Part shown: piece after piece, positions 11,101-63,106 of the stretch
Position numbering within the stretch: the first letter of the stretch is position 1
Layout: the number at the start of each line of letters is the position of its first letter
Source of the DNA: Liolophura sinensis
Taxonomy: Eukaryota; Mollusca; Polyplacophora; Chitonida; Chitonidae
Length of the DNA stretch: 64,000 nucleotides
Assembly (NCBI RefSeq): GCF_032854445.1
Contig: NC_088297.1
Location: 16,131,127-16,195,126, forward strand
Reading direction: 5' to 3'
The notes under the pieces: model-generated
Told to the model about the DNA's origin: nothing
Database searches by the model: none
What the model saw: only the letters and a program-made list of their open reading frames with translations
Program-made: the position numbers and the translations under genes

Positions 11101-12254
11101 AGTCAAATTGTTCTCTTTTTCTTGTAAACAGGGTGATCGCCCGTCGCTGCATGAGTGAATGTACCGTTGGGGGGATCCCCATTCCTAAGGACGCTCTAGT
11201 AGCGGTGGACTTGTGGTCGTTACACTTCGATAAGGATTATTGGGGGCCCATCGACACGAATATTCTAGCACCAGAAAGGTAGGAACTTTATTTTTATGCT
11301 TTGCTTGTAAAGTACGCTGTTCATATTGAAGCGTGGGGTTAAACTTCCAAAGCCATTTTGTCATAATCCAAAGCGAAAGCATCCAACACAGAGACTGACT
11401 GACATTTATACCAAAGATTCTTTTGGAATTTGCCAAGGAAACCAGCAATATCCAGATTTAAAACTGAAAAGAATATTTTCTGCTAAATCACGGGGAAAAC
11501 ATAAAGCCGAAATAAAAGAAAATGGGCTTTCGCTCCATATTTATCAAACGTTTTAAGAGTTAATTTAAAAATTCAAGCACAGCTTTAAAATAAAATATTT
11601 TTCTCTAGGAAGTTTAAGATTTAAAAAACTTAAAATTTTATTAGGCTGCTTGATAAATACGGGCTCTTGATTGTGGAACCATCTAGAACGGTAATGATAA
11701 CCCTTGACTAATATCGGTTACTACAGTCTAGCATATCTGCCTTTGTTTTCATCAGGTAGTTCGTGAGATACTTTTCTAATTGTGGCGGTTTCCCCAGTGT
11801 AATGTTGAGTTTCCAAAGTGCTGTGTGATTTTTCAGGAGTGCCGTGTTCTGATTCCCTAGTGCTGCTTTCTGTTTCCAAAGTGCTATCTTCTCCTCCTAC
11901 AAGCACTATGTTACTGCTTCTCCACTGCTGTGTTCCGTTTCCCCCAGTGCTTTGAACACCAATCATTTCAATACAGATCAATAATTATCCAATTTTATAT
12001 TTTCCAGATTTCTTGACAAAGAAAAAGAAGACGTTCAGAGACTGGCTTGGCTCCCTTTTGGCATCGGCCCACGCAAATGCATCGGTTCTAAACTGGCCAT
12101 GCTTCAGATCAAGATGGTCTTGGTTCAACTGCTGCAAAACTTCGACATCCGTCTGAGTTCCGAGACCAAAAGTCCACTGCCTTTGTACGAAGCCGGACTG
12201 GTAGAGCCACGGGACGGTGTTAAAGTGAATTTGTCCAGAAAGAAGTTGGCTTGA
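2182..12254 (+). CDS. Cytochrome P450, CYP3A/clan-3-like, 12 exons (first exon missing)
   Basis: Haem-thiolate monooxygenase, expected to be ER-anchored. Exons: 2182-2272, 3740-3792, 4569-4665, 5470-5586, 6252-6340, 7567-7724, 8142-8278, 8986-9117, 10460-10606, 10761-10843, 11132-11278, 12008-12254. All introns are GT-AG and the phases chain without a break, giving about 498 residues, full P450 length once an anchor exon is added. Motifs in order: C-helix WKRQR (WxxxR) in the fourth exon; I-helix SSYETT at 10493-10510; K-helix EALR (ExxR) in the tenth exon; APERF (PERF-type) across the last junction; haem loop FGIGPRKCIG with its Cys codon at 12078-12080; stop TGA 12252-12254. The acceptor at 7567, not the AG at 7576, keeps the frame. 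The order and spacing resemble CYP3A, but the subfamily and substrate cannot be told. Oddity: Ser-Ser replaces the usual (A/G)G before x-E-T in the I-helix. Confidence 0.93.
4390..4500 (+). repeat. Dispersed repeat, related to 29463-29545
   Basis: The stretch starting TAAGCCATGGTGCTAGAGGG and the one starting TAAGCCATAGAGCTAGGGGA share about 80-100 bases, including a later AAACCCT and a GAATTGAC/GAATTAAACTGAC motif. The type is unknown. It lies in P450 intron 2. Confidence 0.4.
4499..4527. repeat. (CAAT)n microsatellite
   Basis: Six to seven tetranucleotide units in the P450 intron before the third exon. Confidence 0.8.
4983..5216 (+). mobile_element. Old, diverged SINE family A copy
   Basis: It keeps the order of the family: GGCTC-type head, GCTGTGAGTTCA box-B region, a CTGACTTCCTCTC segment, TATAATGCTGATCACC and a CGACGTAAAACACGTCAAG tail. 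Many substitutions imply an old insertion. Confidence 0.6.
7779..7930 (+). mobile_element. SINE family A copy, 5'-truncated
   Basis: Only the 3' body and the AAATAAAT tail are present. It is flanked by a perfect 11-base target-site duplication, ATATTTATGTA (7768-7778 and 7931-7941). It lies in the P450 intron after the sixth exon. Confidence 0.93.
8438..8590 (+). mobile_element. SINE family A copy, 5'-truncated
   Basis: The 3' body of the family, with an internal loss of the ATTCTT segment, ends in ATCAAATATAT repeats. It lies in the P450 intron after the seventh exon. A further degenerate tail is visible at about 8035-8112. Confidence 0.8.
11755..11965. repeat. Degenerate about 21-24-bp tandem repeat
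   Basis: In the last P450 intron, blocks of the form GTTTCCnnAGTGCTGTGTT recur about eight times with varied spacing, ending at the CCCCCAGTGCTTTG block. The copies are diverged and have no obvious function. Confidence 0.55.
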
Positions 12255-21374: not shown

Positions 21375-22655
21375 ATGATGGACACAATCATTATTACGGA
21401 TGTCATCAAGCTCACAATGGACACCACCTTCATGATGGATGTCACCAAGCTCACAATGGACACCACCTTCATGATGGATGTCACCAAGCTCACAATGGAC
21501 ACCACCTTCATGATGGACGTCACTAAGATCACAATGGACACCACCTTCATGATGGATGTCATCAAGCTCACAATGGACACCATCTTCATGATGGACGTCA
21601 TCAAGATCACAATGGACACCATCTTCATGATGGATGTCACCAAGATCACAATGGACACCACCTCATGATGGATGTCATCAAGATCACAATGGACACCACC
21701 TTCATGATGGAAGTCATCAAGATCACAATGGACACCACCTTCATGATGGAAGTCATCAAGATCACAATGGACACCATCTTCATCATGGAAGTCATAAAGA
21801 TCACAATGGACACCATCTTCATGATGGACGTCATCAAGATCACAATGGACACCACCTTCATGATGGACATCATCAAGATCACAATGGACACCATCTTCAT
21901 GATGGACGCCACCAAGATCACAATGGACACCACCTTCATGATGGACGTCATCAAGATCACAATGGACACCATCTTCATGATGGAAGTCATCAAGATCCCA
22001 ATGGACACCATCTTCATCATGGATGTCATCAAGATCACAATGGACACAATCTTCATGATGGACGTCACCAAGATCACAATGGACACCACCTTCATGATGG
22101 AAGTCATCAAGATCCCAATGGACACCATCTTCATCATGGACGTCATCAAGATCACAATGGACACCATCTTCATGATGGAAGTCATCAAGATCCCAATGGA
22201 CACCATCTTCATCATGGATGTCATCAAGATCACAATGGACACCATCTTCATCATGGACGCCACCAAGATCACAATGGACACCACCTTCATGATGGACGTC
22301 ATCAAGATCACAATGGACACCATCTTCATGATGGAAGTCATCAAGATCCCAATGGACACCATCTTCATCATGGATGTCATCAAGATCACAATGGACACAA
22401 TCTTCATGATGGACGTCACTAAGATCACAATGGACACCACCTTCATGATGGAAGTCATCAAGATCCCAATGGACACCATCTTCATCATGGACGTCATCAA
22501 GATCACAATGGACACCATCTTCATGATGGAAGTCATCAAGATCCCAATGGACACCATCTTCATCATGGATGTCATCAAGATCACAATGGACACCATCTTC
22601 ATCATGGATGTCATCAAGATCACAATGGACACAATCTTCATCATGGATGTCACCA
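21375..22655. repeat. 39-bp minisatellite, about 33 copies
   Basis: Unit: GATCACAATGGACACCATCT then TCATGATGGATGTCATCAA, 39 bases. Variants recur at 351 bases (nine units): the ACACAATCTT variant is near 22045, 22396 and 22630 (the last gap is six units). It ends about 140 bases past the NMD3 stop. Several frames stay open on both strands. The His-rich plus frame has TAA stops near 21524 and 22420 and a one-base deletion near 21662, so it is not one protein. I treat the array as non-coding. Confidence 0.95.
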
Positions 22656-22796: not shown

Positions 22797-25325
22797 CTAC
22801 TCTGTCATTTCTGCCCCAGCCTCGCCCGTGGCATCTCCGCCAATATGAAGATCATCTAACATCTCCTGTAGGCTAATTTGAGGAGCCCCTTCATCATCAG
22901 TGTCATCGGTATCCACAGCAATCTTTAGTTCATCTAAAATAAGACAAGGGTTGACAATTCCATTCATAAATATGCATACAAATGGTTCACAACTTTGTAA
23001 TGAAGCACCAGTTGTAATGGTACCTTCATAAATGCTGACAGGCAGTTGCTTACACATACAAATGCTGACGTGTTTTTGCTTGCCTTCATAAATGTGGACA
23101 CACCTCTGCTTACCTTTATAAATGTTGGCACGCTGCTGCTTAGCTTGATACATGCTGGCAGCCTATTGCTTACCTTTCTAAAAGTTGATACACTGTTGCT
23201 TACCTTTAAAAATGTTGACATCCTGTTGCTTATCTTCATAAATGTTGACACACTGTTGCTTACCTTTATAAATGTTGACACCTTGCTGCTGACTTTATAA
23301 ATGCTGACATGCAGTTGCTTACACATACAAATGCTGATGTGTTTTTGCTTGTCTTCATAAATGTGGACACACCTCTGCTTACCTTTATAAATGTTGACAT
23401 GCTGCTGCTTAGCTTGATACACGCTGGCAGCCTATTGCTTACCTTTCTAAAAGTTGATACACTGTTGCTTACCTTTAAAAATGTTGACATCCTGTTGCTT
23501 ATCTTCATAAATGTTAACACGCTGTTGCTTACCTTTATAAATGTTGACACCTTGCTGCTTACTTTATAAATGCTGACATGCTTTTGTTTACACATACCTT
23601 TATAAATGTTGACATGCTGTCTGAAGGCAGGATCCTCTTCCAGATCTTCCAGAAAATCAGTGTAGTCTCTGTCAAGACATGGAAGCAGTTGAAATTAAGT
23701 CATGTTTAGTGGCAATCATTCGCTGCCATCCTAATAATTTATTAGTTTATTTAAATTTTATAGATCAGCATTTTGAGTATATGACAAGGAGCAGGCTAAC
23801 ATGGAGCTATGCTGCTCCAGCAAGTAACTCTGAATGCTGAAACCGTTTATCACAGTGGTATTACGAATAATTTTAAACAACCTATCAAAACCATTTGATA
23901 ATCTGAGAAATTTATGGCTTGAGTGAGAAACAACTAAACTAACTTTTCCACGTGTGACATGTTGATTTTTGCCTGCTTTGAGAGCTCAAAAGGTGTGGTA
24001 TATGGTTAACAGCAAGTAATCTTGAATAAACGTTATCTAAGACCATTTAAACATCTTAAATTTTACATGTGCTTTCGACTGCTTCTTGCAACCGAGGCCG
24101 AGAAAACAATGCAGGCGTGGGAATAAGATTCCCCGTCTAATGTAGGAGTAATTCAACCATCATCTCATTAGCGTAAGCAATGGGATACTGGGAGAAGTAA
24201 AAATTGGGACGCACGAAATACTAAGCGTAATGTCCGACATTCATATACCATTCGTAGTCCGTAAAGGGCGTTCCAAGTCGATAATCGCAAGATCCATTTC
24301 CAAAACAAAGTTTAACACTAGCTCTCAAAGACAGAGGTATGTAAGAAATTATACAAATAGGAAATAAAGTCGGTAACACACAAGAGAGAAGCTGTCATCA
24401 GTTTTCAATGATGCCGGGCAGACAGTGGATATTCCAGACATGAATTCCATATCAAAGTCCAAATTCGTAGTCCATAAATGAGTTCCCAGTCAAATACCAA
24501 TTAAACCAGGTATCTCAGTCGCACTTTGATTGCAACTGTTCATAAAGGCATCATGCAGATGTAATGAGCAAGGCTGCCTTTAAGCCCCTAGCTCCAGGTT
24601 AAGCAGTATTAGATACAGTTCGAAAATGACGAGCGTTACATTTGTTTATTTATTTATTTATTTGATTGGTGTTTTACGCCGTACTCAAGAATATTTCACT
24701 TATACGACGGCGACCAGCATTATGGTGGAAAGAAATCCGGCACAGCCTGGGGGAAACCCACGGCCATCCTCAGGTTGCTGACAAACCTTCCCACGTACGG
24801 CCGGAGAGGAGCTTGAGCTGGACTTGAACTCACAGCGACCGCATTGGTGAGAGGCTGCTGGGTCATCACGCTGCGCTAGCGCGCTAACCAACTGAGCCAC
24901 GGAGGCCCCCACGAGCGTTCCAGACCTTGAGCGAACAGATTGTGATTAAAAAGTAACGGACGATTATGTCCTTTCAGCGACGCTGGGCATTCCATTGCAG
25001 CGTCAACAGCGTGAGACATCACAGTGGGTAGACCAAAGACGTCACCACATGACCACGCGGCATGCAACGTATTTTTAAAAACGTGCAAGTCCCATGTCAC
25101 ACTAGCGCCACCTGTCGTGAAAGGAAAATCTGCTGGTGCCCCATTAAACAGAGAAGCACCCTAAACAGTAGGCCATCCTACCACTGCCCCTTTCAAATGT
25201 ACATGTAACTCACCTTTCTGTGCTTGCTGTCTCCATCTGAAGGTTACTGTCCAGGTGTTTCAATTTCCACTTTCTTCGCTTGATCCTTTGAGACCGATCA
25301 AACACCTTCTTAACAATGATCTACA

Positions 25326-25367
<42 letters not shown>

Positions 25368-28300: not shown

Positions 28301-31300
28301 ATGTGTGACTAGAAACAAACCATACAAATCTGTGCGGTGTTATCTCATCAAGTTGCCGGGTTTAACTGGTTTTGACATTAGCTCATCCTGGCGTTATACA
28401 GTGTAGCACGGCTACATATGTTTTTAACATGTTAATTTATTTATTTAATTGATGTTTTCGCTGTACTCAAGAATATTTCACTTATACGACAGCTGCCAGC
28501 ATTATGGTGGGAGGAAGTCTGGCAGATCCCTTGGGGAAACCTACGACCATCTGCAGGTTGTTGACAGATCTTCCCATGTAAGGCCGAAGAGGAAGCCAGT
28601 ATTTTTTGGACTTGAACTCCCGCTAACAACCCGTTTTTACCATGCGTCAAGCTCACAGTTACAATCAAGTAACCGTAATTCATCAACTTTTTCGCATATG
28701 GAAGAGTAACTTTCAGTGCAATTTATTCACATTATTAATCTGATTTTGGAGACAAAAACTTCATTGATTGGACTGGCCAGTTTCAGAGTTTTCGCAAAAA
28801 GTATAATTTTCCAAGTCAGAATATGCTTGAATAATCCTTGGAAAAATGCAGAAAGGTTGAAGAATTAAAGTAGCTGTAGCCCAACAAATGGGGCAGGGCT
28901 GAATTCAAGCCTGGTAGGACCTCACTGATCAATGGCAGTCAATTTCGAACAAATTCAAATATGTCTACGTGTATATGTACATGTACTTACTGGCTGTGGG
29001 TTTCCCTCGGGCTCTGCCTGGTTTCCTCCCACCATAATGCTGGCCACAGTCGTATAAGAGAAATATTCTTGAGTATGGCATAAAACAACAATCAAATACA
29101 TAAATAAATAAATAAATAAACTTACCCTAGTACAATGTCCCCAGCGTTCAATAGGTGGCCTAAATGCGTGCGACAGTAGTACTGCTGGTCATTTGACCCC
29201 AGGTCACTCATTCTGGCCACCCACAGATCTGCTAACACATGCTGGAGAGACACAGAGAGAGAGATTGTTCGATCAGAAGTGACACTAAAGTACAGACACT
29301 GATACATGTTGATTTGCACTGCAAGTTTAACAGTTTTAATGTCTTAATGTGCTTGTATGTTAAATGTGATGACCACGACATATTGAGTAATTTTAGACCA
29401 ATGATGTCTAATAAATTGCAACTGACATAAATGCATTTTTTTTTTTTTTTCAACAAAATTTTGCTTAAGCCATAGAGCTAGGGGATGCGCAAGTTGCTAT
29501 TATCACAGAATAAAACCCTAACTGAATTAAACTGACAACAGGCTGTTGGTGGAACGCAACTGATCTCCAAAGACTTTTTTAAAGACTTTCTTTCCAACCT
29601 TACCAGCCTTACTAGCCTTATCAACCTGACCAGCCTGACCAACTTTACCAGCCTTATCAACCTGACCATCCTTACAAACCTTACCAGCCTTACAAGCCTT
29701 ATCAACCTTACCAGCCTTACCAACCTTATTAACCTGACCAGCCTTATTAACCTGACCAGTCTTATCAACCTGACCAGCCTTACAAACCTGACCAGCCTTA
29801 CAAACCTTACCAGCCTTATCAACCTTACCAACCCTACCAGCCTGACCAGCATTGCTGGTAGCATATTATCAGCAGGACCAAAGTATACTGCTAGTTAGGG
29901 AATCAGATACCAAGGCTGGCATTGAACTATTATCCACCATTAAAGACAATCATTTCAACCACCTGGTTAAAATCAGTTAAATTCTGCATTATTACTTCAT
30001 AATTAATTTATTTATCTATTTATTTATTTGATTGGTGTTTTACGCCGTACTCAAGAATATTTCACTTTTATGACGGCGGCCAGCATTATGGTGGGAGGAA
30101 ACTGGGCACAGCCCGGGGGAAACTCACGATCATCCGCAGGTTGCTGACAGACCTTCCCACTTACGGCCGGAGAGGAAGCCAGCATGAGCTGGACTTGAAC
30201 TCACAGCGACCGCACTGGTGAGAGGCTCCTGGGTCATTACGCAGCGCTAGCGCACTAACCGACTGAGCCACAGAGGCCCCAAACTTCATAATTAAAGCTG
30301 TAACCATAACAGCATCTGTTGTTACTTATGTTAATCTACTATTTATGTTACTCTATACTTAATGACCTGTGGCCCTGGGATCACAAAACAATCTTAGACC
30401 GTAGTCAAAATTCCAATCAATAAACTTGAGATGTTCCTTTCTGTTATTTGTTATACGCTGAAAATTGTTTTACAATAACTTACCCAAAATTTACCTTCTC
30501 AGGTAATATTTTGACCTTGTCACGTAGCAGAAGTAACAATTTACAGTCATTTGAAATGGTTTTGTGATCCCAGGGCCTGATATTTCGGTAGGGATTTGGG
30601 ATTTACATGTACCACAGATAATGGAAACCACTTGTTCCCAAATTCAACCACTGACGCACGAGCGAACTAAAAATGTTCAATTCCATCCCAGTAACAAACC
30701 TTGGTAGATGCATGGGCTCTGTGGGGTTTCTCTTTCTCTGGCACGGGGTCCACCTGCATCACCATATACTCAGTCATCTCTTTAGGAGAACAGAGGCTGA
30801 CAAATGGAGTCCTCCAGAAGTTTGCGCCACTCATTTCTGCCACTGGAATTAAGACAAGTGTATTAGGTATGAACAAAACTGAACACCTATCCTCAGGTGT
30901 AGTTTTAATGACTCCTTTCATATGTCTTGTTGTGTGTGGCAACAGTTGGAGGGTAGGTGATGTGGCAAAGGACATATGACAATGACCCTGGAGATCAAAG
31001 GCCTAACAAAGTGAGATTTTTAATAACTTCAAATTAAAATGTTCTTTGGCATCAAAAATGGTGGGGGGAAGACGTTCAGGCCACACTCAGTCTCACTTGT
31101 CTCTCACTTTTGCACAAGGAAACAACAATGTTTCTGATGGGAGAAGCAAAGCAACATCTACTCTATAAGTACAGGTAAGAAGAGAGAGCACTATAAAGAC
31201 TGATTTGATTATTCTTTGATTTATTTATTTGATTGGTGTTTTACGCCGTACTCAAGAATATTTCACTTATACGATGGCAACCAGCATGGGAGGAAACTGG

Positions 31301-37300: not shown

Positions 37301-40300
37301 AATGACACAACCAAATCCTTTTCAGTCTCAATTTCATAAGATTTAAGTGCATAAATTCCACTAAAAAGAGTGCTTTAGTGGTTAAAAAATGTCGAAGATT
37401 TAGTACCTTGTCAAAAATGTTACGCAACTTTTGTTGACATTCATTTGCTGATCACAGAGGCAGAAATGACACTCCTTTTTTCAGGAAGTTCACAACTGTT
37501 CATCATCTCCATTTTCTCCATTGTTTATCTACCCTCAAACCAAGGTTAGTGTTAATGTAACAAAACAAAATGTAACAAAAGTAACTACTTTCCATGTTGA
37601 GGGCAACATACACTCTGTTTTCCAAGCTCCCCCCCACAACTGATGCTGCACAACTTACACTGTTTTTCAGGCCCTCCATTGATGCTGCACAACTGCATGC
37701 TTGGTTTCTTTTTCCTGGTACTTGTTTACAGATAACTTACCTCTTTTTGGACAGTCAGTTTCACTTTGATCCTCTTCGAATGAGGCTCTGTCCACACAAA
37801 TCCAGCATCTATCAAATTGACCTGCAACAAAACTTATTTAATAAATGTCATGTAACTGCTTAATTTTTCCAGCATATTGTACTAGAACGTATGAGCAGGT
37901 GATTGCCAGTTTCTAAAAGTCTAGCCTTTTGGTTACACTAGGAAATACTTGCTTGATTTACTGGATTGGGGTTTTACGCCGTACTCAAGAATATTTCACT
38001 TATATGATGGCAGCCAGCATTATAGTAGGAGAAATCCGGGACAGCCCAGGGGAAACCCATGACCATCTGTAGGTCGCCGACAGACCTACCCACGTATGGC
38101 CGGAGAGGAAGTCAGCATTAGCTGGACTTGAACTCACAGCGACCGCATTGGAGAAAGACATTGGAGCTGCGCTAGAGCACTAACCGAGTCACTGAGGCCC
38201 CTACTAGGAAAAAAAAACACATCATAACATTATGTACTTCACATGCCTGATTAGGTTAGCTTTGAACATATTGAACTGATCATCATGAAAATTAACAAAG
38301 TCTGGTCATACATATACATGCAGGAGAGATGTAAACAAAATTTTGCAAATATCTGTGAGTGCTTGGTGAGTGCTTTGTGAGTGCTTGGGGGTTTAACATC
38401 GTGCTCAACAATTTTTCAGTCATATGACAACAAAGGAATCCTTAGGGTGCATATAATGTACCTCCTTGTTGCAGGGCGGATTTCCACCACTCTTTTATCT
38501 AGTGCTTGCTTCACAGAGACGCCTTACTGAAGACAAGTAAGCCGCCCTGCCCGAGCCATTATACTGATACGAGTTACAACTTCGTCTTTTAAAAGTCTTA
38601 GGTGTGACTCGACCCAGGATTGATCCTGGATCTACCGCTCCCGAAGCGGGCAAATATATCTGTGTGCTGCATGTATGTTCTTCAGAGTTTGTGATCAAAA
38701 CCACATCCAAAAAACCTCAAGGTACATCAAGACTTAGAGGGAGACAAATATTGAAGCAAACGGGTTTATATCATGGTGAGAATGTATGCAAATTTTTATG
38801 GAAATCGGCCTACAACAGACAAAATCAGGTCTACAGACAGACAAGGAGCTTCCAGGATGCACCAACAACTTAATTACTGAGGGCGTAAAACAGGCTTGTG
38901 TAATAAGTACTTTGACTCTACCTTATTCAGTCCTTTCAGTTTCTTAAGACAGACGCCGAGGAGTTCTCGTGACTCCAGTTGAGCAGGCACCCATTGTGCC
39001 GGAGGTTGTAGATACCTGAAACAAACCAGTATTACCTGTATATAATACAATTTTATTTTTCTTCTCTTTGGTGTGAAGGAGTGGGGGAGGCGTCTAACCA
39101 ATATAAGATATCCCAAAGTTTTGGAGAGATTCTCAAGATAGTGTTGGCCTGGAAATGGCAGAGCGGTCATAAACCTCAACAATTCCCTAAACACCAATAA
39201 AACTGTATCCCTAATATCCTGACATCCAAAACACTGCTTACAAAACAGTTCCAACATTCAGTAACCTGCCCACAGTTGCTTCTTCACAGTAGTTCAGGTT
39301 TAGTCTATTAAGTTTGAGCACCATGTAGGAGCTTATGTCTCATGTTTTTGCAGCAGAACTGCGCAGCTTTCCCCCTGTTTATAGATGGGATTTGTGCACA
39401 ATTTTTGCAGAAGTACAGGGCAGTCTGTTTGGGGATTACCTCTCAGTTTGTTCAGTAATGTATTTACCTCTAACAATTTAAACAGAAGCACAGAAAAGTC
39501 TGTCTGGGGATTCCATCTGTTTAGTCATGTACCTCTTGCAATTTTAGCAGAAGTACAGGACAGCCTGATTTGAGATTTTAGCAGAAGTACAGGACAGCCT
39601 GTTTGAGGATTCCCTCTATTGAGTCACATACCTCTCACAATTTCTGCAAAAGTACAGAACTGCCTGTTTCGGAATTCCTTCTGTTATGTCCACTCTGGTC
39701 CTCACACAACCCACGCACATGTTGGTTGGGTTCGGCTCAATCTGTGTTCCGCACTCACAACACAGACTATAGAAAAACAAACAGGGTATACATAATACTC
39801 AGATTTTGGAAAACGGCGTGCGGAATTTGGGGAAATTTTAATACAGAATCGCATATTTTGAGAAAGATGTAAACGTATCAGGGTGCTGTGTATTTAAAGT
39901 TAGGTTACCTGGTAGGCCTACTTAACTTTGGTCACATACCTTGAATGCATTAACCAAAATCAAATATGTCACATTCGCAGTTCAGGATGAACACCACTAC
40001 ATTCCCCCAAATAGGGCAGCTGTGGTCAAATTAGCACCTAAATGCGGACAATGACCTTTGAAACTTGAGGTTGCAACTGCTTTTCACGGCCAATAAAATA
40101 GCAACATTTCAAAGTAACACATTCTATTTCTCATTTTCAGTTGCCCCATTGTTTTTACCATCATTTACAGGGAATTGGCGGTACGATGTCCAATGCAGAA
40201 TTGCAATGAAACAGCTATTCAATGAAATAAGCATGCCACCACTAGGTTAGAGCACAGGCTGCCAAGTGAAAATTAGCACCCAGCTCCTGTATACTGCGAG

Positions 40301-55070: not shown

Positions 55071-58000
55071 ATGACCGATAGTTCAGATACGGAAAGTACA
55101 GTCCTGATGTCGGCCACAGCTAAGAAAGAGAAGAAGAAGCCGGATTGGAGTCGGTTTGGACTAAATCCGGAAAAACAGGAGGCGGGATCTTATCAGCGAG
55201 ACACTACCCCTTCTGATCATCACCTCGAAGGTGGCTACGATCAGTCAGACCCGGGAAAAGGCAATGAACTGTTCCACGAGGATGAGGTGAGAGTCTAGCA
55301 TGTCTAGCACGTAACTTATGTGGTTATTGCATAGCACACGCACTTTCGATATGATAAATAACCTAAAATTTCACCTATGACTACAGTAGTGGATAAGGCA
55401 ACAACTGGTTGACCCGTATCAGTATAAGGGCTTGAGTGGGGTGGCTTATTTGCCTTCGGTAAGTCATCTCATTGGTGCAGCATTAGATAAAGGAGTGGTG
55501 GAAATCTGTCCTGCAGCAAGGAGGCACATTACATGCACTCTAAGCATTCCTTCGTCGTCGTATGACTAAAACATTGTTTAGTACGACGTTAAACCCCGAG
55601 CACACACACACTCACTCACTCACCTGTGACTATAAGTTGGACATCAAAGAGCTCTTCTGATCTTAGACAGGTGATTGTAATGGAACATGTGATGATGTCC
55701 TGCTGGAAAACTATAAGTTTAAGCAACCAATAATTATTTTCTTTTATACATGCATCAGTGGACCTTCGTGGCTGAGTTGGTTAGCGCGCTAGCGCAGCGT
55801 AATGACCGAGGTGCCTCTCACCAATGTGGTCGCTGTGAGTTCAAGTCCATCTCGTGCTGGCTTCCTCTCCTGCCATATGTGGGAATGTCTGGCAGTAACA
55901 TGCAGATGGTCATGGGTTTCCACCTGGCTCTGCCCGGTTTCCTCCCACCATAATGCTGGCCGCCGTCGTATAAGTGAAATATTCTTGAGTACGGCGTAAA
56001 ACACCAATCAAATAAATAAATACATGTATCAGTGCCAACACTTTTGTGGATAAAATTTTATTTTCATTATGGATATTTGGGGTTTTATAAGGCTGGCCAA
56101 AATTTCAAACAATGAAATAAAAACTTGTTGCGTGAATTCACAAAACTATTATCAGTCCTGCTGATAATGGCCATAAAACAAGGTGCTGAAATATTGACTC
56201 ACAATTAATCCTTTTTCATAATTTCATGTGTTTCTGAGGAGTAAAACTCAGTTATTATGTGAAACTAATCAGTGGGACACAAAGTGTATTGAAAGAGCAA
56301 ATTTGCAAAGATATAAAACCATTGAACCTACTACTGAAGGTTATCCAAAAATTCATTGTGAAAAAAATCGACTTCCAATATATGTTGTTTTCATCTCTAG
56401 CACCTATCCCAGAAACCCTGGTGGAAGGCTAACTTCTTCATCTCGGAGCCAGTGTTATTCGGGACGTGGGACGGCGTGTTCACATCATGTATGATTACCA
56501 TCCTCAGTGTTGTTATTTTCCTCCGAATGGGTTGGATCGTGGTAGGTATATTTATTGTTCAAATAGCCCTTTTTGAATCATGTTGTCTAAAAAGACAAAA
56601 TGGTTGCACTAAATTCTATCCTGTTACCCGTAACATCATTGAGATACAACTCGATGATGAATCACTTGGAAAGAGAAGACATTGCGTGGTTTAATCCCAG
56701 TCTTGGCTGGGAAGTTCTCATCTGTCCACTTTAGACCTTGGCAAAAAGCAGTCCACAGTGGTCATTTATTTATTTGATTGATGTTTTATGCCGTACTCAA
56801 GAATATTTCATTTATACAACGGCGGCCAGCATCATGGTGGGAGGAAACAGGCCAGAGTGTAGCGGAAACCCACGACCATCCGCAGGTTGCTGGCAGACCT
56901 TCCACAGTGGTCAATGGGTTATTTACATGCATGTGTACAAGGGGTCGTCTTGGGCCTCCGTGGCTGAGCAGATTAAACATGCACACCAATGTGGTAATTG
57001 AGGGTCGTGCCCAGCTCGTGCTGGCTTCCTCTCCAGTCGTACATCTACCAGCTACCTGTGGATGATTGTGGGTTCCCCTGTACGCCACCCCCTCACCCCC
57101 ATCGTTGAAATTGGTGCAGTATTATGGAGTGGGGTATAAAACATGGATCAAATAAATAGATATTTAAATCAATAAATAAATAAAGGTAGTGCCTTGGAGA
57201 TCCTTTGCCGTACCGATCACCAATGTGCATACACCTTTTTTTCACTCTGCAGGGGAAGTTTTGTTAAGGGTGGAGGTGGGCAGAGGTTTTAAAATTTACT
57301 AAAAGTATTCAAGCTGTAAGTGGGGTTGAAGGTAATATGGCTTACATTTGATAGCCAGTCCTGTATGAAGAGGTATATATGTGTTCAGGAGCAAAGCCAG
57401 TTCTGTATGAAGAGGTATATAAGTGTTCAGGAGCAGCCAGTCCTGTATGAAGAGGTATATATGTGTTCAGGAGCAAAGCCAGTTCTGTATGAAGAGGTAT
57501 ATATGTGTTCAGGAGCAAAGCCAGTTCTGTATGAAGAGGTATATATGTGTTCAGGAGCAAAGCCAGTTCTGTATGAAGAGGTATATATGTGTTCAGGAGC
57601 AAAGCCAGTTCTGTATGAAGAGGTATATATGTGTTCAGGAGCAAAGCCAGTTCTGTATGAAGAGGTATATATGTGTTCAGGAGCAAAGCCAGTTCTGTAT
57701 GAAGAGGTATATATGTGTTCAGGAGCAAAGCCAGTCCTGTATGAAGAGGTATATATGTGTTCAGGAGCAAAGCCAGTTCTGTATGAAGAGGTATATATGT
57801 GTTCAGGAGCAAAGCCAGGCCTGTATGAAGAGGTAAATATGTGTTCAGGAGCAAAGCCAGTCCTGTATGAAGAGGTATATATGTGTTCAGGAGCAAAGCC
57901 AGTCCTGTATGAAGAGGTAAATATGTGTTCAGGAGCAAAGCCAGTCCTGTATGAAGAGGTAAATATGTGTTCAGGAGCAGAGCCAGTCCTGTATGAAGAG

Positions 58001-61000
58001 GTAAATATGTGTTCAGGAGCAAAGCCAGTCCTGTATGAAGAGGTAAATATGTGTTCAGGAGCAAAGCCAGTCCTGTATGAAGAGGTAAATATGTGTTCAG
58101 AAGCAAAGCCAGCCCTGTATGAAGAGGTATATAAGTGTTCAGGAGCAGAGCCAGTCCTGTATGAAGAGGTATATATGTGTTCAGGAGCAAAGCCAGTCCT
58201 GTATGAAGAGGTAAATATGTGTTCAGGAGCAAAGCCAGCCCTGTATGAAGAGGTATATAAGTGTTCAGGAGCAGAGCCAGTCCTGTATGAAGAGGTATAT
58301 ATGTGTTCAGGAGCAAAGCCAGTTCTGTATGAAGAGGTATATATGTGTTCAGGAGCAAAGCCAGGCCTGTATGAAGAAGTAAATATGTGTTCAGGAGCAA
58401 AGCCAGTCCTGTATGAAGAGGTATATATGTGTTCAGGAGCAAAGCCAGTCCTGTATGAAGAGGTAAATATGTGTTCAGGAGCAAAGCCAGTCCTGTATGA
58501 AGAGGTAAATATGTGTTCAGGAGCAGAGCCAGTCCTGTATGAAGAGGTAAATATGTGTTCAGGAGCAAAGCCAGTCCTGTATGAAGAGGTATATATGTGT
58601 TCAGGAGCAAAGCCAGTCCTGTATGAAGAGGTAAATATGTGTTCAGGAGCAAAGCCAGCCCTGTATGAAGAGGTATATATGTGTTCAGGAGCAGAGCCAG
58701 TCCTGTATGAAGAGGTATATATGTGTTCAGGAGCAAAGCCAGTCCTGTATGAAGAGGTATATATGTGTTCAGGAGCAAAGCCAGTCCAGCCTTAGATGCG
58801 GACCTGTCTTCTGGTATTCAAACTTACATGTATGTGATTGACACCCCAACAAAATGGCCGAGCTGCAGTTGCTGGTCAAGCCAGTTATACTTCATCCCTT
58901 TAGAACAGTTGCCCTTGACCAAAGAAAGTTTGATTGTGGCCTTACTTCAGGAAATTTCTGTGTGGTACATGTACATGGAGTTCCCATATAGTTTTCTCCC
59001 ATCATTAAAGGAGAAGAAAGTTAAGCAGGATGCCAAAAGCAGATGAAAAACTACAATTACAATAATGGTTTTCAATATTTTGCTCAATTTTTGTGCTCAT
59101 GAGAAAAGGTTATTTGAAAATTTTTCTGTATGGTGGGTATATGGGACCACTTTTTGGTATTTGTCATCATTGCAAATAGTGTTCCTAATTAGGATGTGAT
59201 GCATGTCAAATAAATTTATTTGAATGTAAAATTTTTGTTTATATCCAAACATAAGCATTTAATCTGAATTATGATAATATTTATGAATATATTAAAAATA
59301 TAAATATTTTCCAGAATTCAGGTTGAACATATTTGTGAGCTGAAGAGGCCAAATTCTGGTGCAGATGTATCTATTAAACATGTGTGGCATCCTTATGCAT
59401 AATATTATTGCATAAAGACTAAATGTATATGTAGCAAAAGGTGGTCCCAAATACTCTCCATACAAAAAGTATTTTCAAGTGTTAAGTTTTCTCTTTAAAG
59501 AAAAGTTGAAACACATATTGAAGACCCTATTTAGAAATAACTTTTCGCACTCATTCATCGGAACTTGATGTAATTTTTTGGTTTTCTCGGCCTTTAAACC
59601 TGACTGAGGTATGTGTGGGTTCAACCCTGGTCTTTGACAGATAAGCTCTATTTATTTGTTTGATTGGTGTTTTACGCCGTACTCAATAATATTTCACTTA
59701 TACGACGGCGGCCAGTATTATGGTAGGAGGAAACTGGCCAGAGCCCGGGGGAAACCCACAACCATCCGCAGGTTGCTGGAGGACCTACCCACGTATGGCC
59801 GGAGAGGAAGCCAACATGAGCTGGACCTGAACTCACAGTGACTGCATTGGTGAAATGCTCTTGGGTCATTACGCTGCTCTAGCCAAATAATTTCTAGATT
59901 ACCAGGGTCTTGTTGTTTGTGGGGGATTAGGGGTTAGTAAACAGTTGACAGTGGCAATGGGGACATATGGGACGTTTTTCATTCCTTGAAGACATCAGAC
60001 ATATAACTTTACTTCCACCAGTGTAGTGTGCAAGCCACTGTCTGCTATATCCTGTAGGTGAAGAATTCTGGAGAGTCATGATATACAGGCATGTACAAGC
60101 TCATGGGTGAAGCATTACTTATTTCAACCAAAAGACCATTACAATTGAGTAAACAAGTCAACAAACAATTCAGGTCATTGAGCTTGATTTTGATTTGTCA
60201 CTTTCCAGGGGAATGCTGGGATAGGCTACTCCATCTTGGTTGTGTTGATGAGTGTTTCTGTGGCGCTGATCGCGGCACTGAGTGCCATAGGTGTGTGTGA
60301 GAGATGTCGGATGGAGAGTGGCGGCATCTACTTCCTCTTATCTCATGTCCTCGGAGCTCGTATCGGGGGAGCGTGTGGAATTATTTACTGCTTCGCGCAG
60401 GTACTGTATTTTGCTTTTGCTTTAGCTCTCGTGAAGATTGCCATATCAGGAAAGCTGACAAAAATTTCTCTGTGACAATTTGTAGTAATTTTATTCAAAC
60501 GAACTTGCAATTTGTAACAAAATGCAAATTGACCTTCATAATTTTTACAAGTGGTTTTAATATGTAACCATGTATTTTATACATGTACATGTGTCAAAGG
60601 CTGTAGCTTTATGTATATAAAAACTTTTCATAATAAATTTTGACTGATGAGCTTGTACTTTGAAGCTCACTTGAACTTTGGTCATTAAAGATACTTGGTC
60701 AGAGTTTATTTATTTATTTGATTGGTGTTTTACGCCGTACTCGAGCATATTTCACTTATACGACAGCAGCCAGCATTACGGTGGGAGGAAACCGGGCAGA
60801 GCCTGGGGGAAACCCATGACCATCCGCAGGTTGCTGACAGACTCTCCCATGTATGGCCGGAGAGGAAGCCAGCATGAGCATGAGCTGGACTTGAACTCAC
60901 AGCCATGACATTGGTGAGTACATGGTCAAGGTGGTTAGCACACCAGTGCGGCGCAGTGACCCAAAAGCCTTTCACCATTGCGATCGCTGTGAGTTCAAGT

Positions 61001-63106
61001 CCAGCTCATTCTGGCTTCCTCTCCGGCCAAAGATGAGAAGGACTGGCAGCAGTCTGTGGATGGTCCTGGGTTTCCCCCGGATTCTGTCTGGTTTTCTCCC
61101 ACCTTAATCCTGGCTGCTGTCAGATAAGTGAAATATTCTTGAGTTCGTCATAATACACCAATCAAATAAATAAGAGATACGCGAAAAAGTGATATAATTT
61201 ATTTGTCAGTGTATGTATAATTTGGCTGTGTACATGTTGTGACAAAATGTAACAAAATGTGACAAATTCAGCAAACCTGTTGTGACAAAATGTAAGTAAA
61301 CTTAAGAAAACATGTTCTAGCAAATTAAACCAACATGTTGTGCCAAAAGCAAATAAATGATGCAAAATGTAAAATATTTAAATGTGTTGAAATCAACACG
61401 AGTTCCCACTGGTTGTAACAAATTTGAACGAAAAGTCTGATGATGTTTACAACCTGTCAGAGAGGCAAAGATTTTGGGAATACAAAATTTCACAAATACT
61501 GTGTACACAACCAGTATGTGTACATGTGTATACAATGTATGCTACTGAAACATTTATCTGATGTGTCAAACAAAACCAATTACCGTAAGTGACCTACCAA
61601 TTTGACCACAAAAGAGCCTTTTTGGAGGCAAATAAATGTCATGAGATATTAGTTTTGGTGCTAAAATTTACATTTTCCCAGTAGGATATCATCCTACCTT
61701 TCAAACACCTCTCAAGACAGCTTTTTGAAATCAGTAGAACTCCAAGACTCTGAAAAAAATAAGAAACTTACTCATGGACGAAACTTTAGGTCTTTTATTG
61801 TAAGTCAAGTTTTCACCTGTAATGCCTGTATTGGAGGAGATCTGAGATTGGCTTCGCTCCGTTCAGCTTAGGGGTCAGATATACACATGTACATGCACTC
61901 TAGTGCTCGAAACCATCAAGATCAAGCTCGAGAGGTTATCCTGGTGAATGGCGGTGCATGGTTTAATCTAGTTTCTCCCCCCCCTTCTCCCTCATCCCCT
62001 CAAGCAATAAATGTGTAATGACTGATTCAGTGGCCTAATGGTTAGGGCATCTGCCTCAAAGGCTTCGGGGGCCTCCATGCCTCAGTTGGTTAGCGCGCTA
62101 GCGCAGCGTAATAACCCAGGAGCCTCTCACCAATGCGGTCGCTCTGAGTTCAAGTCCAGCTTATGCTGGCTTCCTCTCCGGCCGTACGTGGGAAGGTCTG
62201 GCACCAACCTGCGGGTGGTCATGGGTTTTCCCCTGGGCTCTGCCCGGTTTCCTCCCACCATAATGCTGGCCGCTGTCGTATAAGTGAAGTATTCTCGAGT
62301 ACGGCGTAAAACACCAATCAAATAAATAAATCAGAGGCTCCGCTCTGATAAGTTAGAGCATGGAAACAGTATAATGGGACTAGGTGGGGTGTTATGTCTG
62401 GTGTCTGAGGCATTATGCTATTTTATCACATAAAAATTGCTAAGTACATGTACAGTATGAAACCCCAAGTATACTTTCATACATACATAGCATTGCATTC
62501 CATTAGTGAAAAATTGGGCCCTCTGTGGCCTAGGTGGTCAGTGTGTCAGCATGGCACAGGAGCCTCTCACCATTGTGTCACTGAGTTTAAGTCCAGCTCA
62601 TGCTGGCTTCCTCTTGGGCCACACATTGGAGGGTCTGCCTGCAGCCTGCGGATGATCATGGTTTTCCACTGGGTTCAGTCTGGTTTCCTCCCACCGTGCT
62701 GCTGGCCACCATCGTGTATGTGGAATATTCTTGGGTACGGCATAAAACAGCAATCAGATAAATTAATAAATAATGCAATAATCAAATAAATAATAGTAAA
62801 TCAAATAAATAAACGAACAACTGCATTAAACCCTGAATAAAAAAATAGTCTCATGATGATTTCCCTGCCCACAGGCCGTAAGCTGCTCCCTGGCGGTGAT
62901 GGGATTCGGCGAGTCAATCATGGTTCTGGCAGGAGAGGACAATCCATGGATCGCCAGAGGTGTGGCCATCGGTATCACCCTCCTCCTGATGGGCATCAAC
63001 GTGGCAGGGGTCAAGTGGGTAATTCGTCTCCAGCTCCTGCTGCTTATCGCGCTCTTCCTCTCCACTATGGACCTCATTGTGGGATCCTTTCTTCACACAG
63101 TGCCAG
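55071..63106 (+). CDS. SLC12A8: SLC12A8-like transporter, first four coding exons (gene continues past the window)
   Basis: Membrane protein of the cation-chloride cotransporter family (SLC12/APC fold). Mammalian SLC12A8 (CCC9) has been reported as a nicotinamide mononucleotide transporter, a claim that is disputed. Exons: 55071-55286, 56401-56541, 60209-60400, 62875-63106, all GT-AG with consistent phase; the last ends one base into a codon at GT 63107. Exon 1 gives about 72 cytosolic residues ending NELFHEDE, like vertebrate QELFHE. Exon 2 holds the family signature [15 protein letters not shown] and transmembrane helix 1. Exon 3 adds helix 2, the [14 protein letters not shown] loop and the start of helix 3. 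Exon 4 holds [14 protein letters not shown] and helices 4-5, ending TMDLIVGSF. The start at 55071 (MTDSSDTES) is preferred; an in-frame ATG at 54939 would add 44 residues. Roughly the N-terminal 40 percent of the protein is present. Confidence 0.95.
55390..55622 (+). mobile_element. SINE family B, 5'-truncated
   Basis: From GATAAGGCAACAACTGGTTG, through GGTTGACCCGTATCAGTATA, to the tail AGTACGACGTTAAACCCCGA and (CACT)n. SLC12A8 intron 1. Confidence 0.88.
55761..56019 (+). mobile_element. SINE family A, full length
   Basis: Head GACCTTCGTGGCTGAGTTGG. 15-base target-site duplication ATACATGYATCAGTG with one mismatch (55746-55760 and 56020-56034). SLC12A8 intron 1. Confidence 0.96.
56765..56900 (-). 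mobile_element. SINE family A 3' fragment
   Basis: Tail and 3' body only. Perfect 13-base target-site duplication TCCACAGTGGTCA (56752-56764 and 56901-56913), so it integrated already truncated. Confidence 0.95.
56950..57180 (+). mobile_element. Diverged SINE family A copy
   Basis: Head GGGCCTCCGTGGCTGAGCAG with an internal loss, CTCGTGCTGGCTTCCTCTCC, then a degraded 3' body and AAATAAATAAATAAA. Confidence 0.8.
57355..58795. repeat. 42-bp minisatellite, about 34 copies, in SLC12A8 intron 2
   Basis: Unit CTGTATGAAGAGGTATATAT, GTGTTCAGGAGCAAAGCCAG, TC. Frames of 491 (plus) and 478 (minus) codons run through it because 42 is a multiple of three. The block starting GGCCTGTATGAAG recurs at 57818 and 58364, 546 bases apart (13 units). 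The array lies inside an intron between two well-supported exons, so I treat the frames as artefacts. Confidence 0.95.
59180..59600 (+). repeat. Dispersed repeat family E, copy 3
   Basis: Collinear with 44225-44640 over about 400 bases. SLC12A8 intron 2. Confidence 0.8.
59648..59882 (-). mobile_element. SINE family A copy, head truncated
   Basis: Tail TTTATTTGTTTGATTGGTGT and body through the box-B region to GGGTCATTACGCTGCTCTA. Possible short target-site duplication GCTCTA. Confidence 0.92.
60704..60920 (-). mobile_element. SINE family A copy, head truncated; inverted pair member
   Basis: Tail TTTATTTATTTATTTGATTG, body to TTGAACTCACAGCCATGACA. It lies head-to-head with the copy at 60922-61170. 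Confidence 0.9.
60922..61170 (+). mobile_element. SINE family A copy; inverted pair member
   Basis: Starts in the box-A region (CAAGGTGGTTAGCACACCAG), has GAGTTCAAGTCCAGCTCATT, and ends CAATCAAATAAATAAG. Confidence 0.9.
62020..62490 (+). mobile_element. SINE family C copy split by a family A insertion
   Basis: The 5' part CAGTGGCCTAATGGTTAGGG to CTCAAAGGCTTCG stops at about 62066. The element resumes at about 62335 (GGCTCCGCTCTGATAAG) with GTGTTATGTCTGGTGTCTGA and a degraded tail. GGCTTCG/GGCTCCG flank the insertion. Confidence 0.7.
62067..62333 (+). mobile_element. SINE family A, full length, nested in family C
   Basis: Starts GGGGGCCTCCATGCCTCAGT; box-B region GAGTTCAAGTCC; tail CAATCAAATAAATAAA. 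Confidence 0.95.
62515..62790 (+). mobile_element. SINE family A, diverged
   Basis: Head TGGGCCCTCTGTGGCCTAGG, GAGTTTAAGTCCAGCTCATG, tail CAATCAGATAAATTAATAAA. It ends about 85 bases before SLC12A8 exon 4. Confidence 0.88.

Follow-up and report, generated by a model that had tools for sequence, protein, structure and literature searches.

The minus strand of the window (the whole stretch of 64,000 nucleotides which was analysed; G+C content 38-41%) carries an NMD3 gene which is complete or nearly so. It was recovered exon by exon by tblastn with human NMD3, a query identical in sequence to chain 3 of 6lu8. Fourteen exons between 39766 and 22797 join into a single open frame which is closed by a stop codon at 22797; upstream of these, a short exon with its end at 39940 is a plausible candidate for the first coding exon. 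Exon 14 (23668-23598, 71 bp) is followed by the last intron, intron 14 (23597-22934, 664 bp), with the donor GTATGT (+1 at 23597) and the acceptor TTATTTTAG. Exon 15 (22933-22797) codes for the C-terminal LQEMLDDLHI and the stop codon. This peptide aligns with LAEMLEDLHI of human NMD3, a segment which is a nuclear export signal. A pattern search of viral contigs with the C-terminus, for related loci, gave 24 matches and no relatives. Two Pfam matches, AP5B1_barrel (E 0.007) and Phage_G (E 0.0085), were dismissed as weak, the latter being under its cut-off.

The plus strand carries a cytochrome P450 gene (10460 to 12.3 kb, heme-binding motif at 12057), with weaker candidate exons from 2182, and the exons of an SLC12-like cotransporter (56401-63106). 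Within one intron of the latter a 42-bp unit is repeated 34 times (57353-58787), with no relation to the exon end. A 39-bp array of about 33 copies (21378-22652) starts approximately 145 bp past the NMD3 stop codon and has several frames open. Directly upstream of the acceptor of NMD3 exon 13 there is a run of 36 T residues (25329-25364, minus strand). A SINE-like element, the head of which we read as probably tRNA-like, lies at about 24910-24640 and elsewhere, and its tail motif GTAAAACACCAATC occurs 14 times in the window (6 plus, 8 minus). The tail looks mollusc-like, a likeness without weight as evidence, and scans for exact motif matches in viral and prokaryotic contigs and in a collection of papers had no hits.

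The last NMD3 intron is occupied over most of its length by an array with a 30-bp unit (23597-23021, minus strand), as delimited by TRF and by unit-by-unit alignment and described from one haplotype. TRF reported a 30-bp period in 19.1 copies and a 269-bp period in 2.1 copies. Besides the copy at the exon-intron junction, the alignment resolved 18 full units and one partial unit, close to the count of about 21 copies in the original prediction, which had been made by inspection of the letters.

The origin of the units was investigated with a query consisting of the last 50 bases of the exon and the first 12 bases of the intron. The exon 14 end scored 26 against its own intron; no score above 16 arose in 200 dinucleotide shuffles, and none above 13 in the other 12 introns. 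The longest exact match between the exon end and the array is 25 nt across the boundary (22 exonic and 3 intronic), compared to no more than 12 nt in 200 shuffles; the last 22 bases of exon 14 are thus repeated exactly inside the array. The proposal that the units descend from the end of exon 14 and its donor is confirmed. The exon is the source and the array the derivative, because the protein segment of exon 14 is common to human NMD3, with which it has 17 of 25 residues, VNIY included, in common.

Structures of this type have a precedent which the original prediction did not mention. The "mirages" of amphioxus are minisatellite-like tandem duplications of exon-intron boundaries, described for Adh3 and for two globin genes and mentioned for further loci. 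The Adh3 units are 10-72 bp long, and many, although not all, of the repeats carry AG/GT; splicing is normal as suggested by RT-PCR, according to the part of the report available (PMC3087553). The NMD3 array is likewise a tandem minisatellite, its unit lies across the exon-intron boundary of its host, and AAAG|GTAAGC is retained in 8 of the 19 copies. These structural features are those of mirages, and the NMD3 arrays (a second one is described below) may be classed with them.

The array is organized in blocks of 269 bp. The first two (23597-23329 and 23328-23060) show 258 identities over 269 positions, and the start of a third follows at 23059. Each opens with GTATGTGTAA, the first occurrence of which is the genuine intron start. 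Among the 8 units of block 1, 19 of the 30 columns are variable. Tandem arrays are easily misassembled, and this counts in favor of an artefact in which the copies were multiplied by the assembly. One mirage was apparently misassembled in a draft genome, as the amphioxus report has it in its available portion (PMC3087553). Such an artefact is nevertheless highly improbable here, since the 11 differences between the blocks and the variation among the units of block 1 show that one read was not simply repeated.

The junction copy measures 36 bp and the array units 30 bp. Removal of GTATGT from the junction leaves the core of the common unit, ATTTATAAAGGTAA; removal of ATAAAG leaves that of the block-start unit, ATTTGTATGTGTAA. 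Both unit types may be derived from the junction through 6-bp deletions, although other histories are possible. Duplication of the 269-bp block probably started at the donor or very near it. The first intronic copy reads AAA|GTAAGC and is short by one base, exactly as had been noticed from the letters.

Eight intact copies of the decoy donor AAAG|GTAAGC are located between 23535 and 23108 on the minus strand, with +1 positions at 23532, 23472, 23442, 23382, 23263, 23203, 23173 and 23113 and spacings of 30 to 119 bp. Copies of this kind had been described as "many"; they do exist, and the corrected count is 8 of 19. A donor matrix gave the genuine donor of exon 14 a score of 5.57, above 14 of 20 genuine donors (13 from NMD3, 4 from P450 and 3 from SLC12), and the eight decoys a score of 7.00, above 17 of the 20. 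The calculated pairing with U1 gave -9.5 for the decoys versus -8.7 for the genuine site. The view that the decoys are arguably stronger than the genuine donor is therefore upheld by both measures.

Over the whole of intron 14, eight sites besides the genuine donor equalled or exceeded its score, where 300 shuffles gave a mean of 0.19 and a maximum of 2; the other 12 NMD3 introns together have three. This count also bears on whether the array is an ordinary minisatellite, its likeness to the exon end being coincidental and the region merely rich in minisatellites. By TRF the window does contain seven other arrays of at least 250 bp besides that of intron 14 and a diffuse one in intron 2, but neither these seven nor the intron 2 array has, on either strand, a site as strong as the exon 14 donor. 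The 25-nt exact match already refutes coincidence, the probability of which is practically negligible.

Within the units no preferred loss of GT was seen: variation equal to or above that of GT occurs in 7 of the 29 adjacent column pairs, a number which counts GT itself. A selective disarming of the decoys is thus unsupported, the GT pair not being unusually variable among the column pairs of the unit. The predicted local accessibility of the genuine donor was 0.004, the lowest of ten sites, while the nine decoy sites ranged from 0.010 to 0.043. RNA accessibility is accordingly unsupported as the basis of donor choice.

The 3' remainder of the intron beyond the array, which includes the acceptor (22934-23020, minus strand), was compared with the array by shuffling. 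The match of the last 89 bp was not significant (38 of 500 shuffles were equally good) and the best alignment stopped short of the acceptor, though a very degenerate copy might escape detection by this comparison. The array had been taken to fill the entire intron, which has to be restricted to about 577 of 664 bp (~87%). For the same reason, the array is unsupported as the source of the whole intron.

This result also bears on intron gain, in which the intron was born of tandem AG|GT duplications, or a copy is in the course of becoming an exon. The AGGT tandem-duplication model (the Rogers model, with potato RdRp, ATP2A1, fission yeast and Drosophila as examples) shares with the NMD3 array a duplication across AG|GT, and the multiple 24-bp copies inside an intron of fission yeast are comparable to it, judging from the available sections of two reports (PMC4974935, PMC2891723). 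Models of this type have been proposed for the amphioxus globins (PMC3087553, in part), and intron gain by tandem duplication is described for potato, with ATP2A1 and fission yeast as cited cases, in the corresponding section of PMC4974935. In the model, however, duplication makes a new intron with both donor and acceptor, whereas the NMD3 acceptor is not evidently a copy of the unit and the intron is not necessarily new. Since the 3' end of intron 14 has no significant relation to the array, there is no sign of the acceptor as a copied unit, and a gain of this intron by such a pathway is unlikely.

The test for copies of the exon end was applied to the 13 modelled NMD3 introns. The donor side was positive in two of them (introns 2 and 14), and the acceptor side in none. 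Intron 2 contains a second, degenerate array (39617-39397, minus strand), absent from the original prediction, the source of which is exon 2 (39766-39632, minus strand). The exon 2 end scored 29 against this intron, with at most 15 in 200 shuffles and at most 17 in other introns. The array holds four copies of the exon end (scores 39, 29, 23 and 21), two of which extend into the donor (39532 and 39467). Three donor-like sites in it scored 0.95, 4.10 and 2.55, versus 4.66 for the genuine donor; the first two are donor copies by alignment while the third (39439) is not. All are under the genuine score, as would be expected if decoys decay. This newly recognized array appears to be an older and decayed one, made of its own exon end and donor.

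The 8 donors and 8 acceptors of the P450 and SLC12-like genes in the window were all at background; 3 of these donors and 2 of the acceptors (P450a-c) were placed by tblastn matches which are weak (E 0.08 to 1.2), and the introns of P450c and SLC12c were tested with their ends unlocated. With the three genes taken together, the test was positive for 2 of 21 donors and for none of 21 acceptors, the 3 donors and 2 acceptors on weak exon matches being included and the putative exon 1 donor (39939) left out. The closest to a positive was the donor side of intron 6 (score 14, with 3 of 200 shuffles equally good), followed by the acceptor side of intron 12 (14 of 200) and one P450 acceptor (19 of 200). 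These were treated as background among 42 tests. An 18-bp array in NMD3 intron 10 (29594-29850, minus strand) includes a moderately donor-like site, with a best score of 5.4, and in the same test it gave no sign of an origin from the exon 10 end.

The consequences of decoy use were predicted from the reading frames. All eight intact decoys would shift the frame of exon 15 and yield a product without LQEMLDDLHI. The frame of block 1 is shifted because the first copy lost a base; block 2 has this loss at its head too, which causes a further shift. The claim that later donors would put exon 15 out of frame thus holds for all the intact decoys, but not for a weaker cryptic donor, GAG|GTGTGT (23372-23367, minus strand, +1 at 23372), which would add 225 nt in frame and retain the C-terminus. 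The exon frame was also said to read on into the array for over 100 codons, and it does so for about 110, up to a stop which ends at 23266.

Four decoys, with extensions of 65, 125, 155 and 215 nt, lead to a stop 6 nt inside exon 15. An extension of 334 nt ends at a stop 2 nt upstream of the last junction, and extensions of 394, 424 and 484 nt at stops 62, 92 and 152 nt upstream of it, respectively. Junction-dependent decay usually follows a 50-55 nt rule. Of the eight decoys only three would be predicted to trigger it, the stops of the other five being located inside exon 15 or 2 nt short of the junction. Degradation of the longer mRNAs, which had been offered as an alternative to accurate donor choice, would consequently be only a partial rescue.

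These five products, all of them without LQEMLDDLHI, speak for actual use of the decoys, in which the block 1 donors would give an NMD3 without its export-signal-like C-terminus, the mRNAs would escape decay and 60S export would be tuned. In Arabidopsis, NMD3 without export signals is nuclear and is dominant negative on 60S export, 60S subunits being retained, as stated in the available part of that study (PMC3338764). The frame shift, however, results from a single lost base in the first copy and looks accidental, and the amphioxus mirages are apparently harmless to splicing, as far as their report could be consulted (PMC3087553). Such use is distinctly unlikely. A working switch, in which a stable NMD3 without its export end would act as an inhibitor of 60S export, with a dose set by the copy number of the minisatellite and varying between individuals or cells, is very unlikely.

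Most probably, the intron 14 array is a mirage-type minisatellite which is tolerated by splicing, the extra copies being removed with the intron. A short segment over the boundary of exon 14 and intron 14 would have been multiplied in tandem, and the 269-bp block, with its start at the donor or close to it, would have been duplicated later. The 5'-most, genuine donor would still be chosen, so that the extra copies stay intronic and are spliced out with little or no effect on fitness. What favors the genuine donor is probably the body of exon 14, which is rich in purines, resembles an enhancer and is not copied in the array. Purine triplets are linked to splicing enhancers; exon 14 has 10 of the type GAR/RGA in its 71 nt and none in its last 19 bases. 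Since the triplets are absent from these 19 bases, only the genuine donor would adjoin enhancer-like sequence.

Several observations count against a tolerated passenger. The eight decoys exceed the genuine donor by both scores, GT is not selectively lost and accessibility does not favor the genuine site. Furthermore, with duplicated donors in vitro the donor nearest to the acceptor is often favored (a literature search for this found none).

The likeness to amphioxus, a link for which one paper is the source in its available part (PMC3087553), extends to the Adh3, BflGb6 and BflGb9 mirages, each a tandem minisatellite over an exon-intron boundary with part of the copies keeping AG/GT. The NMD3 case differs from amphioxus in that a single gene has two arrays and each of them is at a donor, whereas the BflGb6 mirage is at an acceptor; furthermore, eight decoys outscore the genuine donor, which is also where a higher-order repeat of 269 bp begins. 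Splicing in amphioxus was judged by RT-PCR, while the NMD3 arrays are described from the genomic sequence. Minisatellites with units of approximately 30 bp, possibly at exon-intron boundaries and affecting gene structure, also occur in human duplicated genes, according to the portion of that report which was available (PMC2812944). The human case concerns variable repeats in recent primate paralogs and is transcript-based, in contrast to a single NMD3 gene read here in the genome only.

This locus stands out above all for its eight better-scoring decoys and for an older second array in NMD3. Since lancelets already show such structures, the locus is a good test case for splice-site choice and not a new kind of element. 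It presents a natural competition in which one genuine donor faces eight copies of a single 9-base site, all of them with better scores, and the gene concerned serves 60S export. Splicing errors there would give the type of NMD3 for which a dominant negative action is reported from a plant, as described in the part of the study at hand (PMC3338764). RNA from this animal would provide a direct view of how far exon context outweighs donor sequence. The decayed array of intron 2 would represent an older stage of the same process in the same gene and, if the animal is not a lancelet, mirages would reach beyond the cephalochordates.
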